DNA of 64,000 nucleotides, taken from assembly GCA_017935565.1 (NCBI GenBank), contig JAGBHK010000002.1:55973-119972 (forward strand), written 5' to 3'. The DNA comes from Lachnospiraceae bacterium (lineage in GTDB: Bacteria > Bacillota > Clostridia > Lachnospirales > Lachnospiraceae). The position numbers were made by a program, and so were the translations under genes. Positions 27,071-43,507 of the stretch are shown here, one piece after another. Numbering within the stretch: the stretch's first letter is position 1; each line of letters begins with the position of its first letter. A model generated the notes under the pieces. It was not told the DNA's origin, searched no databases, and saw only the letters and a list, made by a program, of their open reading frames with translations.

Positions 27071-27161
27071 ATAAAAATTGGCGGGTGTCTTACCCGCCAA
27101 TTGGTGGACCCGGGTCATACGACCAGCCCCTAAATTTTACTTTTTAACAGAAACTCTGTTC
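27071..27161 (-). ncRNA. Candidate structured RNA upstream of a DUF3800 start
   Basis: About 90 nt on the minus strand between a promoter and the terminator hairpin TTGGCGGGT/ACCCGCCAA (27077-27101, U-run after). The middle contains GGGGCTGGTCGTATGACCC then GGGTCCACCAATT. Families of conserved RNAs called DUF3800 motifs are known upstream of DUF3800 genes, and the position fits. Assignment to a particular motif was not possible by eye. Confidence 0.6.
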
Positions 27162-38302: not shown

Positions 38303-39103
38303 CTACGATGCTAAATCCTTTTTATTATATTTAACATAAGCAGATATTATAGTTATTATAAATATGCTCGAACCAATTATTATAGCCACCACGTCTAGTT
38401 TTTCACCACTAAATATATCCGCTGCGTTTGAATATGAGAAAGGACCAACAACCTTGTAATCTTTTAAATCTGGTATAACCCTTGTAATCAAATCAAAAGC
38501 ATATAGCATAAGAACTATTCCCAGTCCTATTCCCAGCTTATTTTTCTGCATAAATGAAGATATACAAAAGCATATGCCTGCAATTTCAATATGCATAAAA
38601 AACTGCATCAAATGATAAATAAAAAATTCTTTAAAGCTGATATCTTCTCCCAGTACTATAATTCCTATGCAATATAACATCACACATGCTACATTCAATA
38701 CAGCAATATGTGTCATTGCAGCAAAAAGTTTTGCCGTAACTACTTCAGTTCTTGAAATTGGCATCGAATACAAATATTCACTAGTATGTCCATCTTCTTC
38801 CTTTGATAATATGCTAGTACAAATGATAGCCGCAAACATAGCACCACCCAAAGCATGTATCGTACCAACTTCAGTTGAATAAAAACCTTCTAATGTAGCA
38901 ATGCTTAACTGACTCATTCCAAAAGCGTCGGCGAATGCTCCCATAGATGCAAAACTTTCAGCCATACCACCCATACTCTCCTTTAGATTTGAAAATAGCA
39001 ATATACAAGCAAAGCCCATACCACCAACGCATACAAACCATATTAATAAAGTTTTTATGTATGCTTTAATCTCATGTTTAAAAATAGTAGCCATTCCCAT
39101 CAC
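38303..39103 (-). CDS. ABC-2-type transporter permease
   Basis: 266 residues with six membrane helices and a cytoplasmic loop ILSKEEDGHTSEYLYSMPIS then RTEVVTAKL, the E-loop region that contacts the ATPase in ABC-2 permeases. It resembles the bacitracin/antibiotic export or Nos-type permeases. Several starts (GTG 39103, ATG 39100, ATG 39094) share one ribosome-binding site. Immediately downstream of the ATPase gene, forming one exporter. Confidence 0.87.
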   Translation of the reverse strand: MMGMATIFKHEIKAYIKTLLIWFVCVGGMGFACILLFSNLKESMGGMAESFASMGAFADAFGMSQLSIATLEGFYSTEVGTIHALGGAMFAAIICTSILSKEEDGHTSEYLYSMPISRTEVVTAKLFAAMTHIAVLNVACVMLYCIGIIVLGEDISFKEFFIYHLMQFFMHIEIAGICFCISSFMQKNKLGIGLGIVLMLYAFDLITRVIPDLKDYKVVGPFSYSNAADIFSGEKLDVVAIIIGSSIFIITIISAYVKYNKKDLAS

Positions 39104-39931
39104 CTAACCTTCCTTATAAAAATGCATAAAAATCTCATCTAACGACGGTTCTTCAATGGTAATGTCCGTAATATCATAACCAGCCAATTCATTTACGAGT
39201 TCATTTAAATCTTTATCAAACAGAAAATCTTCTGCTATTCCATTCCTAATCATTTTTACTCGCTTTGCATTTGTTTTTGTAATATTTGCAACATCATCAA
39301 CATGTTGCAAAATACCCTCTTTCATAATGGCAACTCTATCGCAATAATTTTTCACCTCTGATAATATGTGTGTAGACAACATACATGTAGCCCCTTCTGC
39401 AACATACTCTTTGACAAGTTTAAAAAACTCTGCCTGCATAAGCGGATCCAAGCCACTAGTAGGCTCATCAAAAATTAAAAGTTTCGGTTTATGTTGCATA
39501 GCACACACAATACTTACCTTTTTCCTATTTCCAAGAGACAACTCACTTATCTTTTTGTCTCTGTCAATTTTTAATCTTTCATAAAGTTTCTCTGCTTCAA
39601 CACTACAATCCATTTTTCTAACATCAGCAGCCATTTTAATAATATCCTTAACCTTCATTTCAGGATAAAACATAGCTTCTGATGGCATATATCCAACATC
39701 TTTCAATATAACTTTAATATTTTTACTTACATCTTTATCAAAAATTTTTATTTTTCCACTTTGATAATGAATAAAACCTAGCATTGAACGAATAGTTGTA
39801 GATTTACCTGCACCATTTGGACCTAAAAAACCAAAGATTTCTCCTTTATGCACATTAAAGCTCACATTAGATACTCCGCGATTTTTTCCATATGTTTTTG
39901 TTAAATTCTTGATTTCTATAATATTTTCCAC
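39104..39931 (-). CDS. ABC transporter ATP-binding protein
   Basis: 275 residues. Walker A GFLGPNGAGKSTT, signature LSLGNRKKVSIVCAMQHKPK, Walker B LLIFDEPTSGLD and an H-loop in MLSTHILSEV. DRI-type antibiotic exporter, CcmA-like. It starts at GTG after GGGGG. The upstream TipA-like MerR regulator is 47 bases away and co-directional, so the three genes could form one inducible efflux unit. Confidence 0.95.
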   Translation of the reverse strand: MENIIEIKNLTKTYGKNRGVSNVSFNVHKGEIFGFLGPNGAGKSTTIRSMLGFIHYQSGKIKIFDKDVSKNIKVILKDVGYMPSEAMFYPEMKVKDIIKMAADVRKMDCSVEAEKLYERLKIDRDKKISELSLGNRKKVSIVCAMQHKPKLLIFDEPTSGLDPLMQAEFFKLVKEYVAEGATCMLSTHILSEVKNYCDRVAIMKEGILQHVDDVANITKTNAKRVKMIRNGIAEDFLFDKDLNELVNELAGYDITDITIEEPSLDEIFMHFYKEG

Positions 39932-39978: not shown

Positions 39979-40707
39979 TTAAGGCTTTTTACAATAGTAA
40001 TCAATGGCCCTTGCCACAAACTGAGCAGTTCCATCGCCTCCTGTAGCGTCAATATTTTCCGTCATACTTCCGCCACCTGAATACATTTTACCAAGACTAT
40101 GTAAAATCTCATCTGTGCATGTGTAAAAGTGCTCTGTAATATACATTTTCAACTCTTCAACCATTTTTTGAGCTTCCTTTGATTCAGGCTCCATATCCTT
40201 TATTTTCCCAAATTCTTTAAAAATGCCCATAAATTCATTCACTAATTTTTCATTATCCTCTTTAGAATAATCCTTTTGCTTCTCTTCAAATTCTTTATAG
40301 GCATCAGTCTCTCCCCAAGTCCTTTTAGCTTCTTTTGCATATTCATCAAGTTTTTTTGTATCAAATGCTGAAAAATCCATATTTTTAACTCCTATTCCAT
40401 ATATTCCACGAGCAAATAAAATCAAATTTTCAAAGTGTTCCTTTTTCAATGTAAGTAATGCAATCTGTTGTTCTAAAGCCCTATTTCTGTCAAAATCAGT
40501 ACTATTAATAATCCTTTTTATTTCCTTAAGCGGAAACTCCAATTCTTTAAACAATAAAATCTGTTGAAGTCTTTCCAATGACTCATCATCATAAATTCTA
40601 TAACCAGCCTCTGTATATCCAGCTGGTGGTAATAATCCAATTTTATCGTAATATTGCAAAGTACGTACGCTCACTCCAGTTAATTTGCTTACTTCATTTA
40701 CAGTCAC
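39979..40707 (-). CDS. MerR-family regulator with TipAS ligand domain
   Basis: 242 residues. The N-terminal MerR winged helix (EVSKLTGVSVRTLQYYDKIG, then GYRIYDDESLERL) is followed by a linker coil and a TipAS domain (about 140-240) that binds thiopeptides or other drugs in Streptomyces TipA. It starts at GTG after GGAGGTG. The promoter upstream has the 19-base spacer that MerR activators need. Likely activates itself and the downstream ABC exporter genes. Confidence 0.92.
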   Translation of the reverse strand: MTVNEVSKLTGVSVRTLQYYDKIGLLPPAGYTEAGYRIYDDESLERLQQILLFKELEFPLKEIKRIINSTDFDRNRALEQQIALLTLKKEHFENLILFARGIYGIGVKNMDFSAFDTKKLDEYAKEAKRTWGETDAYKEFEEKQKDYSKEDNEKLVNEFMGIFKEFGKIKDMEPESKEAQKMVEELKMYITEHFYTCTDEILHSLGKMYSGGGSMTENIDATGGDGTAQFVARAIDYYCKKP

Positions 40708-41227: not shown

Positions 41228-41668
41228 CTATAATAAAAATTTATATATGCACTTATTTGTTTCTCCTCTTTCTCTCATATCATTATCTTCTGGTAATTCA
41301 ACAATTTCCAAAAGTTGACCACCAGCATATTCACAAGTCTTTCTTGATGCATAATTATCAGGATTACAAGTTATAATTAAATATTCCATTTCATGTTTTT
41401 TTGCTAATTCAAACAATATTAGACAAGCCTTTCCAGCATAATGATTTCCCCTAAATTGTTCATCAATACCATAGCCAATATTTCCACCATAATAAAGTCT
41501 GTCATTATGACCAATACGCAAATCACAAACACCAACTTTTCTTCCTTCATTATTACAAATGGCGAAATGATATGCTGGAACCCAATCCTTTTCAACATTT
41601 CCTTCAACTGTCTTTTCTAAAACTAATTGTATTTCATCACTCTTTAAAAACTCAGTATTCATAAACAT
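41228..41668 (-). CDS. GNAT-family N-acetyltransferase (RimL-like)
   Basis: 146 residues. The stretch EQFRGNHYAGKACLILFELA is the acetyl-CoA loop (G-N-H-Y-A variant), and the tail reads NYASRKTCEYAGGQLLEIVE. ATG at 41668 follows GGAGG by 10 bases; the earlier ATG at 41704 has no ribosome-binding site. Substrate unknown. Confidence 0.83.
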   Translation of the reverse strand: MFMNTEFLKSDEIQLVLEKTVEGNVEKDWVPAYHFAICNNEGRKVGVCDLRIGHNDRLYYGGNIGYGIDEQFRGNHYAGKACLILFELAKKHEMEYLIITCNPDNYASRKTCEYAGGQLLEIVELPEDNDMRERGETNKCIYKFLL

Positions 41669-41745
41669 ACTTATCCTACCTCCATATATTTGATTTGCCT
41701 CCAATCATAAAGTATTACCCTAGGGCTAAGTCAAGTTTTTATTTT

Positions 41746-42087
41746 TCAACTCTTTCTCCATATACCCGCAAGTAAACGGAAAGAACTCATATTTCTGTGT
41801 GCCAGTATGTACTGTTTTAATACAGCATTTGCCCAGCGACGAAATTCAACTCCTCGTTTTGATTTTACACGGTAACCGACAGAGATAATCATGTCAAGAT
41901 TATAATACTCAATGCTTCTCTCTACCTCACGTTCACCTTCTTTTTGAACTGTCGCAAATTTTGCGACAGTTGAATCATCCAGTTCTTCCTTTAATGCAGC
42001 CTTCACATGTTTTCCTATTGTTTTGACATCTCTATCAAATAGTTCATCCTTCTGATTCCTATTCAACCAAACCGTTTTCTGATCCAC
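41746..42087 (-). pseudogene. Fragment of a RhuM-family gene
   Basis: 113 codons matching the N-terminal half of RhuM/virulence-type proteins: KTVWLNRNQKDELFDRDVKT, IEYYNLDMIISVGYRVKSKR, GVEFRRWANAVLKQYILAHR. The usual start is missing and the frame stays open upstream into the end of rsgA (reading EEILPVNVD), while the C-terminal 150-200 residues are absent. A start codon GTG exists but has no clear ribosome-binding site. Most likely a remnant left by recombination beside rsgA. Confidence 0.78.
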
Positions 42088-42089
42088 AT

Positions 42090-43163
42090 TTACAGGTAAT
42101 ATTTCTTCTTATCCGCCTTCATTCGCTTATTTGTTTTAGCAATCTCCTTGTGCCATTTGACCTTATCACGCATATAAGCATTTTTATCTTCGGAATATCT
42201 CGCCTCATTTTTAAGTTTAATATAACTTTCCCAACGCTCCAACGACAAAAGTCCTTCATCAATAGCTTGATTTATTGCACAGCCCGGTTCATTCATATGC
42301 TTACAATCAGAAAACCTACATTTTCCCATGTGTTTCTCCACATCTTCAAATGCGGCATCAAGTCCTATAGAAACATCCCACATACCAAGTCCGCGCATAC
42401 CAGGGGTATCAATAATCATAGCACCACTCTTCAACATAATAAGTTGTCTATGCGTTGTTGTATGACGCCCCTTGCTGTCATCTTCTCGAATATCATTAAC
42501 ACTCATCAGTTCTTCACCAGCCAATACATTGACAAGGCTTGACTTTCCTACCCCCGATGAACCCAAGAAAACAACTGTGTTTTCTGGTTGAAGGTATTTC
42601 TCCAACTGTTCCATTCCATAACCTGATTGTGAACTTACCACGTGAACCTCCACTCCAGGTGCAACCTGTGATGTAGCATTAACACATTCTTCATAATTTT
42701 CCACCAAATCTGCTTTCGTCAAAACTATGATAGGCGTTGCACCCGACTGCCATGCCAATGTCATATAACGCTCCAATCGCTTTTCGTTGAAATCATGATT
42801 TAATGACTGCATAATAAATACATAATCAAAATTTGCCGCTACCGCCTGTTCTCCTCTTCCTGGTGTTGGATCAAGACGAGAGAAAAATGTTTTTCTTTTC
42901 AACGTCTTTACTATTTGACTATCACCATTAGCAATATAATTTATCAGTACAAAATCCCCCGTAGTCGGAAACTCCTCAAAATCCACATAATACTCCTTTG
43001 TTTTTAATCTTGCGTATGTTTCTCCATATTCGCATACCACCTCATAGCGTTCCCTATGAACAGCAGTTACTCTGGCTGGTATCAATGTCAAATTATATGA
43101 TACTGCTATTTCTTCTATTTCTTTCATCATTTGTGGTCTAAAACCATATTTTTCTAAATTCAT
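42090..43163 (-). CDS. rsgA: RsgA-type circularly permuted GTPase
   Basis: 357 residues. Order: OB fold, then circularly permuted GTPase (G4 VLTKADL, G1 GSSGVGKSSL, G3 DTPGM), then the zinc finger CRFSDCKHMNEPGC. RsgA helps mature the 30S subunit and binds stalled or immature ribosomes. This version is 50-60 residues longer than typical housekeeping RsgA and has a Lys-rich C-terminal tail, so it may be a paralogue. A 300-base leader with a promoter, a tiny ORF and a strong terminator precedes it, an unusual regulation for this gene. Confidence 0.93.
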   Translation of the reverse strand: MNLEKYGFRPQMMKEIEEIAVSYNLTLIPARVTAVHRERYEVVCEYGETYARLKTKEYYVDFEEFPTTGDFVLINYIANGDSQIVKTLKRKTFFSRLDPTPGRGEQAVAANFDYVFIMQSLNHDFNEKRLERYMTLAWQSGATPIIVLTKADLVENYEECVNATSQVAPGVEVHVVSSQSGYGMEQLEKYLQPENTVVFLGSSGVGKSSLVNVLAGEELMSVNDIREDDSKGRHTTTHRQLIMLKSGAMIIDTPGMRGLGMWDVSIGLDAAFEDVEKHMGKCRFSDCKHMNEPGCAINQAIDEGLLSLERWESYIKLKNEARYSEDKNAYMRDKVKWHKEIAKTNKRMKADKKKYYL

Positions 43164-43218
43164 TTTAATAATCCTCCATTATTGTTACCTTTACATCCTT
43201 TTTAATTTGAAAAAGGGT

Positions 43219-43264
43219 ACAAAAATACCGTAGAAAGCAACCCTACAAATGCCACTTCCTACGG
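43219..43264 (-). terminator. Intrinsic terminator inside the rsgA leader
   Basis: CCGTAG/CTACGG stem (43228-43233 with 43259-43264) extends inward through GAAGTGGC and GGTTGCTTTC to 14 pairs including G-U, followed on the minus strand by TATTTTTG. It lies about 55 bases before the rsgA ATG. Confidence 0.75.
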
Positions 43265-43399
43265 TTCATTTTAAGTATAAAAATAACACACCCTAAAAGT
43301 GTGCTAATACCGCAAGTACTAGTATTCACGAAAGGTTTCTTAAAAACGGCACAACAATAAAGAGGTGTTCACCTCAAAATCAACTGCACCCTTATTCAG

Positions 43400-43432
43400 T
43401 TATGCAACAATTACCTCACTCAATAAAATCAT
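43400..43432 (-). CDS. Leader peptide upstream of rsgA, 10 residues
   Basis: ORF reading MILLSEVIVA then TAA, with AAAGGAG nine bases before its ATG. It is followed by hairpins and the strong terminator before rsgA. No counterpart is recognised. Translation is inferred from the ribosome-binding site and position. Confidence 0.5.
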   Translation of the reverse strand: MILLSEVIVA

Positions 43433-43478
43433 AATTCATTTCTCCTTTCGTATCTGCAATAACAGATTTATTTTTTAC

Positions 43479-43507
43479 AGTATAACATCCTATGGCTTGG
43501 TGGTCAA
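43479..43507 (-). promoter_or_regulatory. Promoter of the rsgA leader
   Basis: Minus-strand TTGACC (43507-43502), a 17-base spacer and TATACT (43484-43479), a near-consensus vegetative promoter about 310 bases before the rsgA start. Confidence 0.8.

Follow-up and report, generated by a model that had tools for sequence, protein, structure and literature searches.

The 64,000-nucleotide (nt) stretch of a Lachnospiraceae genome analysed here (contig JAGBHK010000002.1, positions 55,973 to 119,972; hereafter the window) encodes a long copy of the ribosome GTPase RsgA behind a leader region. A promoter, a short open reading frame (ORF) led by a Shine-Dalgarno (SD) sequence, and an intrinsic terminator precede the gene, which is the layout of an attenuator and, where it has been studied, turns on genes for antibiotic defence. 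We consider it probable, at roughly two chances in three, that this leader is a ribosome-mediated transcription attenuator controlling a stress-specific RsgA paralogue, with translation inhibitors or similar stalling as the most likely trigger. A preliminary description of the window had recognized the layout and read the gene as a stress- or antibiotic-induced ribosome rescue or protection factor. Its structural reading is right, and its functional reading is likely.

The window protein, which that description had called longer than usual, measures 357 residues, while the open frame of the standard rsgA in this genome spans 296. It passes the cut-offs of PF03193 (RsgA_GTPase, 175.1 bits, cut-off 30) and TIGR00157 (177.4 bits, curated cut-off 100), and stays below those of the longer models PRK12288 (186.3 of 360 bits) and PRK12289 (122.7 of 483). 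The permuted G4-G1-G2-G3 motifs are present as TKADL, GSSGVGKS, GRHTT, and DTPG, as is the CxxxxCxH zinc motif (CRFSDCKHMNEPGC). The protein thus shares the domain, the permuted G motifs, and the zinc motif with canonical RsgA/YjeQ/CpgA, but differs from it in reading TKAD instead of NKxD at G4, in a longer basic tail, in its separate clade (100/100), in its accessory distribution, and in having its own leader. Among nine compared sequences, G4 reads TKAD in all six long RsgA and NKxD in all three standard ones, and the stretch after the zinc motif is ∼25-35 residues longer and basic in the long proteins, one of which carries a further fused domain. A PF03193 search of the source genome, where the preliminary description had suggested looking for a second, standard rsgA, identified two clear RsgA genes, that of the window and the standard copy (C22); the remaining matches over the cut-off are marginal (∼30 bits). 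In trees of 69 and 32 proteins, the first of which took in 40 long proteins and the second fewer, the long RsgA form one side of a split with 100% support (100/100) from standard RsgA and E. coli RsgA, the latter a long branch in the first tree. Because a standard rsgA stands elsewhere in the genome and the long proteins form a separate clade, the window gene is, by sequence, a true paralogue and not the housekeeping orthologue.

The long-RsgA clade is accessory. Its distribution is patchy among seven relatives of the same genus: a long copy is found in G001, G002, and G004 and a 513-residue frame in G006, whereas G003 and G005 (97% and 99% complete) have the standard gene only among strong RsgA matches, and G007 (88% complete) gives no clear RsgA match. 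This bears on a rival explanation, in which the leader reports ribosome-assembly defects or feedback and the paralogue is a spare assembly GTPase for disturbed 30S maturation. The intact G and zinc motifs of the RsgA domain favor such a role, and translation-blocking drugs also disturb assembly. The absence of the clade from the strong matches of G003 and G005 speaks against it, and assembly feedback alone fails to explain the ABC-F, MutS2-like, acetyltransferase, and methyltransferase genes found behind the same leader (see below); we regard it as unlikely.

On the minus strand, the leader runs from the promoter through the SD, the MILLSEVIVA ORF, and a folded region (43279-43390) ending in a U-run to the terminator T2 and rsgA (Table 1). 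The near-consensus promoter had been placed ∼310 bases upstream of the gene; the end of its -10 element lies 316 nt from the rsgA start codon. The 10-codon ORF and its good ribosome-binding site are borne out, as are the hairpins and the U-run, but the terminator had been given 14 pairs and has 15. The 309-nt leader is unusually stable when folded (z = -4.87; none of 100 shuffles equally stable), and a terminator scan of this region of the window returns four terminator-like sites against a mean of 0.6 in shuffles, a list from which T2, whose loop exceeds the limit of the scan, is absent. Promoter-like sites number 12 in the same region, a count not above chance (mean 9.8, standard deviation 3.1); a promoter scoring at least 9/12 precedes 56 of 69 leaders, including that of the window, versus 47 of 455 control windows. 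A second, weak promoter-like site (43178-43205, 9/12) lies between T2 and rsgA. In the last 110 nt 5' of rsgA, the best promoter scores of the 69 loci range from 6 to 9/12, similar to controls, so a second promoter as the true driver of rsgA is not favored.

Table 1. Features of the rsgA unit and its leader in the window, genes found behind the same leader in other genomes, and short ORFs before distant homologues.
Feature	Position or locus	Strand	Remarks
Promoter, sigma-70 type, TTGACC-17-TATACT	43479..43507	-	Extended -10 (TG); 10/12 consensus matches
Leader-ORF SD, GAAAGGAG	43442..43449	-	GAAAGG (43444-43449) is the 5' half of helix P1
Leader ORF, MILLSEVIVA-stop, 10 codons	43400..43432	-	SD-led; conserved Val
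Helix P2, GGTGCA (43385-43390) with TGTGCC (43348-43353)	43348..43390	-	Covariation
Hairpin P3, GAGG/CCTC	43362..43375	-	Inside P2; covariation
Anti-SD strand, AACCTTTCGT	43328..43337	-	CCTTTC (43330-43335) pairs with the leader SD (P1)
Hairpin P4	43304..43322	-	Top covariation score of helix scan
Terminator-like hairpin T1	43279..43305	-	8 pairs, -8.0 kcal/mol, then U-run
Second, stronger terminator T2	43221..43265	-	15 pairs, -19.0 kcal/mol, then U-run
rsgA paralogue, 357 residues	42090..43163	-	PF03193, TIGR00157; TKAD at G4, CCHC zinc motif, basic C-terminal tail
RhuM N-terminal fragment	41746..42087	-	2 bases after rsgA; profile positions 1-64 of 252
GNAT acetyltransferase	41228..41704	-	PF13302; probably same unit as rsgA
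GNATs behind leader (seven)	L150, L168, L174, L175, L177, L179, L199
Weakly CotS-kinase-like protein with GNAT end behind leader	L167
Methyltransferase behind leader	L178
APH-like kinase behind leader	L176		After rsgA remnant (by-eye reading)
MutS2-type genes behind leader (four)	L148, L151, L154, L155
ABC-F behind leader	L147		Near Lsa and ribosomal-protection models
RidA-type protein behind leader	L156		Weakest of its scan (8.8e-4); leader reads MTFLHEVIMS
SD-led ORF present, distant homologues	Listeria, Acetoanaerobium, Brevibacillus, Peptoclostridium, Streptomyces L183, Nonomuraea, Cetobacterium
SD-led ORF absent, among ten distant records	L140, L185, L186

Conservation of the ORF and terminator, which the preliminary description had named as a check, extends to the leader ORF, SD, hairpins, and terminators across Clostridia, so the outcome that would have refuted it, a leader ORF and hairpins lacking conservation, does not apply. 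Among the long rsgA loci from named genomes (best 80 of 196), the covariance model R1 matches 72 at E ≤ 0.01, all on the upstream side of the gene; 23 of the 80 loci were in the model, and 49 of the other 57 match. The eight misses are L065, L100, L091, L095, L103, L107, L123, and L137. Contig ends leave too little upstream sequence in L065 and L100, L123 still has an ORF of the same type (MKTNNEVAFP), and L103 has an unrelated SD-led ORF. R1 matches none of 28 loci fetched mainly as standard rsgA (L001, L009-L035; E ≤ 0.05), 23 of which the tree places in the standard clade, the others being unplaced. Twelve further loci (L045-L056) give a match at five long ones and none at the other seven, which include three of 513-533 residues and two repeats (L055 = L035, L056 = L034). 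One standard rsgA locus, L023, shows a marginal match (1233-1362, 19.6 bits, E 0.029) on the downstream side of the gene.

Structurally, the leader is conserved and covarying across Clostridia, as judged from alignments. The structure-fitted alignment contains 176 cells changed on both sides of a pair, versus 44.5 in shuffles, and scores 0.321 versus 0.169, with slid versions at 0.04-0.11. A MAFFT alignment of 24 leaders, not structure-fitted and with rows selected from previously found loci for their SD and terminator patterns, gives 27 such cells versus 8.5, and further pair types at just 27 versus 24.1. A helix scan without preset structure, run on rows of the fitted alignment, recovers P4, T1, P3, T2, P2, and P1. 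P1 joins the leader SD to the downstream CCUUUC over more than 100 nt and is 97% paired; its first pair shows a compensatory change from GC to AU in seven leaders. That the hairpins simply terminate a unit upstream, with a short ORF present by chance, is hardly credible against this background. Terminator-like hairpins are often intergenic, and the promoter-like sites are at their chance count, but many genera keep the ORF and the covarying helices in the same order and at the same spacing, in contrast to other genes of these loci, and this reading is rejected.

The leader does not correspond to a known family. Rfam gives a best score of 16.8 bits at the window leader against a gathering score of 76, with no T-box and no riboswitch, and the sole match among seven other loci is a T-box at 6883-7120 of L061, away from the L061 leader; a known Rfam leader, T-box, or riboswitch is rejected for lack of a match at these leaders. 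The window's only Rfam match above the gathering score is a DUF3800-XI RNA at 27083-27130. By blastn, the leaders of the window and of L066 have no match in plasmids, and that of L066 has none in phages, which makes a recently spread plasmid leader unlikely and lends no support to the tet(O)/tet(W) leader as a relative.

The leader ORF is a defining feature of these loci. Among long rsgA genes whose free upstream sequence reaches 150 nt or more, 58 of 63 are preceded by an SD-led ORF of 7-30 codons, versus 13 of 222 other genes of the same loci. After correction of eight ORFs by eye and removal of six leaders (99 to 93), the codon analysis covers 93 leaders, which encode 9-13 residues, 9 or 10 of them in 72. 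A Val four codons before the stop is kept in 83 of the 93, with all four Val codons in use. The RLR stalling motif of the macrolide type is not found in the leader peptides compared. The composition of MILLSEVIVA, six Ile, Leu, or Val in ten, together with the near-invariant Val, is what an attenuator sensing amino-acid or tRNA shortage, or general initiation stress, instead of an antibiotic might be expected to show. Other leaders are poorer in branched-chain residues (MTVFCEVIEM, MIVREVVTS), no branched-chain biosynthesis gene is among the downstream families listed (25/48 for next genes), and the lack of an Rfam T-box at the window leader counts against it as well; we consider this explanation improbable. 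A second SD-led ORF lies between T2 and rsgA in 35 of 69 loci by mechanical pick, 29 of them overrunning the rsgA start codon (examples are L058, L061, L062, L064, L072, L074, and L076), and could be a second leader or a means of translational coupling; as none was found for the window gene, it is omitted from the main model.

These elements suggest how the proposed attenuator would work. Transcription would begin ∼20 nt ahead of the leader SD. With ordinary translation of the leader peptide, or with none, this SD would pair with CCUUUC (P1), the P2-P3 domain and P4 would fold, and T1 and T2 would end transcription. A ribosome held at the leader start would block P1, and RNA polymerase would then continue through rsgA to the following gene for a modifying enzyme. 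The hold would most likely come from a translation inhibitor or similar stalling. Folding of 53 leaders is consistent with the first step: a ribosome at the start codon cuts P1 from 5.3 to 0.2 expected pairs, whereas a ribosome at the conserved Val leaves it in place (5.7 expected pairs). A block at or near initiation would therefore be the effective signal, if P1 matters. As for an antiterminator, the ACCUU of the anti-SD strand can pair with AGGU in T1, the GG at the loop end is kept in 12 of 12 partly related terminators of the GATACGA or GGTACGA type, and T2 loops show, on inspection by eye, sequence resembling AGGGUU. The RsgA paralogue would let ribosomes withstand the block or recover from it, most plausibly via the 30S subunit like canonical RsgA, alongside other leader-controlled factors (ABC-F, short MutS2, acetyltransferases).

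The same leader precedes other genes. Genome scans with R1 at E ≤ 0.001 covered 146 genomes of the order (14 with a match), 391 of the class (17), 398 of the phylum (8), 38 of the family of G079 (12), and 30 of the order of G469 (5); some genomes recur among the scans, and the larger ones used stricter filters. Together they gave 50 distinct leader loci beyond the window, of which 3 are cut off too early to be read, 31 lie before rsgA, and 16 lie before other genes, after three loci labelled as other by script were recounted as rsgA (L172 by Pfam, L146 and L152 by rsgA coordinates). As the leader in 8 of the 50 is identical to that of a locus among the 80 above, the additional leaders are 23 before rsgA and all 16 before other genes (Table 1). 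Three ribosome-linked families (RsgA, MutS2, and ABC-F) thus share the leader, two of them as extra copies. At L176, the leader may now serve the downstream APH-like kinase gene. The leader-controlled MutS2 copies, at 636-649 residues, align with the mutS2 model only as far as about position 519 of 790, and Pfam detects no Smr domain in the short proteins (L200-L203). They share the MutS2 core with Bacillus subtilis MutS2 but are shorter and without Smr in Pfam. A full-length MutS2 stands beside the short one in three of four genomes (G079, G143, G110), and in the fourth (G156, 73% complete) the short one alone is seen. A B. subtilis delta-mutS2 strain is hypersensitive to chloramphenicol, tetracycline, and erythromycin (PMC10897456; this and all later citations refer to excerpts of the papers). 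The short MutS2 behind the leader is a candidate inducible ribosome-splitting paralogue. Sharing of the leader with ABC-F, short MutS2, GNAT, and kinase-like genes fits translation stress.

Genomic neighborhood analysis extends this to the genes behind long rsgA. From 78 loci with room for a next gene, 58 have a candidate and 47 of these pass an opposite-strand filter; two were removed by eye as internal frames of rsgA. The next same-strand gene in the remaining 45, several of which come from close relatives, is a GNAT (PF00583) in 20, belongs to methyltransferase families in 6, and is an APH in 2. PF00583 is therefore found in 20 of 45 next genes versus 9 of 90 ORFs sampled from 339 others in the same loci (Fisher p 1e-5, with rows that are not independent). 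On a Streptomyces plasmid, rsgA overlaps a gene annotated as methyltransferase/N-acetyltransferase.

The immediate neighbors in the window bring in a further rival, in which the long RsgA unit would serve phage defence or dormancy by shutting ribosomes down under attack. Overproduction of RsgA in E. coli inhibits T4 and increases persistence (PMC10475562), the window neighborhood contains RhuM and KilA-N genes, and the RhuM fragment matches PDC-S05 and PDC-S23, two candidate defence families of PADLOC, with a best score of 144 bits. Yet the RhuM gene is a fragment, the window RsgA matches PADLOC models weakly over its GTPase part (best 21.1 bits), the GNAT matches none, and the genes that share the leader look to be of the translation-stress type. 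This makes a defence role very unlikely. Just past the rsgA unit, a MerR-like regulator (39979-40707) adjoins an ABC transporter pair (38303-39931); the regulator may be a TipA-type protein.

Several observations weigh against control of a stress-specific RsgA paralogue by a translation-sensing attenuator. Four of the six assessable R1 misses (L091, L095, L107, and L137) are also without an SD-led ORF. The dN/dS-like (nonsynonymous to synonymous) ratio of the leader ORF is 0.70 and its conservation is partly at the nucleotide level, with GGU kept beyond the amino acids, so RNA constraints also act on it. In the folding of the 53 leaders, T1 mostly stays formed with a ribosome at the start codon (5.6 versus 6.0 expected pairs). 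The ACCUU:AGGU pairing proposed as antiterminator rises slightly (0.69 versus 0.23), and hardly at all for the window. A simple switch is therefore not reproduced by equilibrium folding, which does not favor this pairing in most leaders; prevention of T1 could be decided by kinetics, a pausing polymerase, or a translating ribosome that covers more RNA. Among the associated genes, GNATs are common in these neighborhoods anyway (9/90), the eight GNAT or kinase-like proteins compared with NCBIfam all stay below its curated cut-offs, and the L147 ABC-F, whose sequence is cut at the locus end, misses the curated NCBIfam cut-offs (351.6 of 380 and 381.4 of 750 bits). The physiology of E. coli rsgA is mixed. 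Its deletion is among four mutants with a 2- or 4-fold lower gentamicin minimum inhibitory concentration (MIC), but the deletion also slows growth in drug-free conditions and lowers the cefotaxime MIC 32-fold (PMC10295648), so its drug effect is not specific to ribosome inhibitors; mutation of rsgA is also cited as linked to tetracycline tolerance (PMC10475562). These reports make the E. coli parallel loose, and they concern canonical RsgA, not the window clade.

The long-RsgA clade also occurs in records of Listeria, Lysinibacillus, Brevibacillus, Acetoanaerobium, Peptoclostridium, Cetobacterium, Streptomyces, Nonomuraea, and Rhizobium. The distant homologues differ in leader sequence, yet an SD-led short ORF precedes the gene in 7 of 10 records (Table 1). 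In Listeria monocytogenes (L138), long rsgA lies with an 18-codon ORF between an mltG-like gene and pnp, and a GCTCC/GGAGC pair could mask the rsgA SD, an arrangement that looks like translational attenuation. On a Lysinibacillus fusiformis plasmid (L140), long rsgA is followed by a gene annotated as FosM (fosfomycin resistance). In Christensenella hongkongensis (L114:4001-5386), RsgA is fused to an RNHCP domain (PF12647, 129 bits), and RNHCP-like genes appear, in a by-eye reading that is unconfirmed, after long rsgA in L191, L194, and L195. WblC-type control of the Streptomyces-type homologues was considered and dropped, as no GAAAWY motif is found within 350 nt in L183, L184, or L185.

Known systems provide parallels to the arrangement. 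The hflXr gene (lmo0762) of Listeria monocytogenes is likewise a paralogue of a housekeeping ribosome-associated GTPase; a short leader ORF precedes it, with a terminator that has alternative structures, and it is subject to transcription attenuation (PMC6310831). It differs in belonging to the HflX family and in its 14-residue peptide with an RLR motif that is absent from the window leader, and its lincomycin and erythromycin resistance and its regulation have been measured (PMC6310831). In addition, the window-type leader is common to several gene families. The cplR leader of Clostridioides difficile is likewise clostridial, with a short upstream ORF in a 5' hairpin, a terminator, and an anti-SD element, and combines transcriptional and translational attenuation; it controls an ABC-F, however, and its ORF, MR[I/M], has three codons (PMC10201436), compared with about ten codons, a near-invariant Val, a long-range SD:CCUUUC helix, and a P2-P3-P4 domain in the window-type leader. 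The RsgA/EngC paralogue pair SCO6149 and SCO5211 of Streptomyces coelicolor places an RsgA paralogue in the tetracycline response, but under control of a transcription factor, WblC/WhiB7 (PMC7157823). The word rsgA is absent from the main text of two papers on new structured RNAs (PMC11109978, PMC8632094), the second of which has a different upstream ORF motif, with an RLR peptide. No description of RsgA under a leader-peptide attenuator was found among the titles and abstract openings listed in searches of the open-licence PMC literature. The proposed switch is of a known kind, with a new element, unmatched in Rfam, and a new target.

More tentatively, and with somewhat less than even confidence, the leader may define a hitherto undescribed translation-stress regulon of Clostridia, in which ribosomes stalled on a ten-codon peptide would switch on protection or rescue paralogues together with modifying enzymes. 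The GTPases of the RsgA paralogue clade would then be dedicated to the response to drugs or stalling and would act on the small subunit as a new protection class. A new class of ribosome-protecting or rescuing GTPase is plausible. If the reading is true, RsgA paralogues would join the short list of ribosome GTPases serving as inducible protection factors, and the function of a widespread second RsgA would become directly testable. The leader RNA would also offer a handle for finding translation-stress genes in gut Clostridia, among them short MutS2, uncharacterised GNATs, and kinases.

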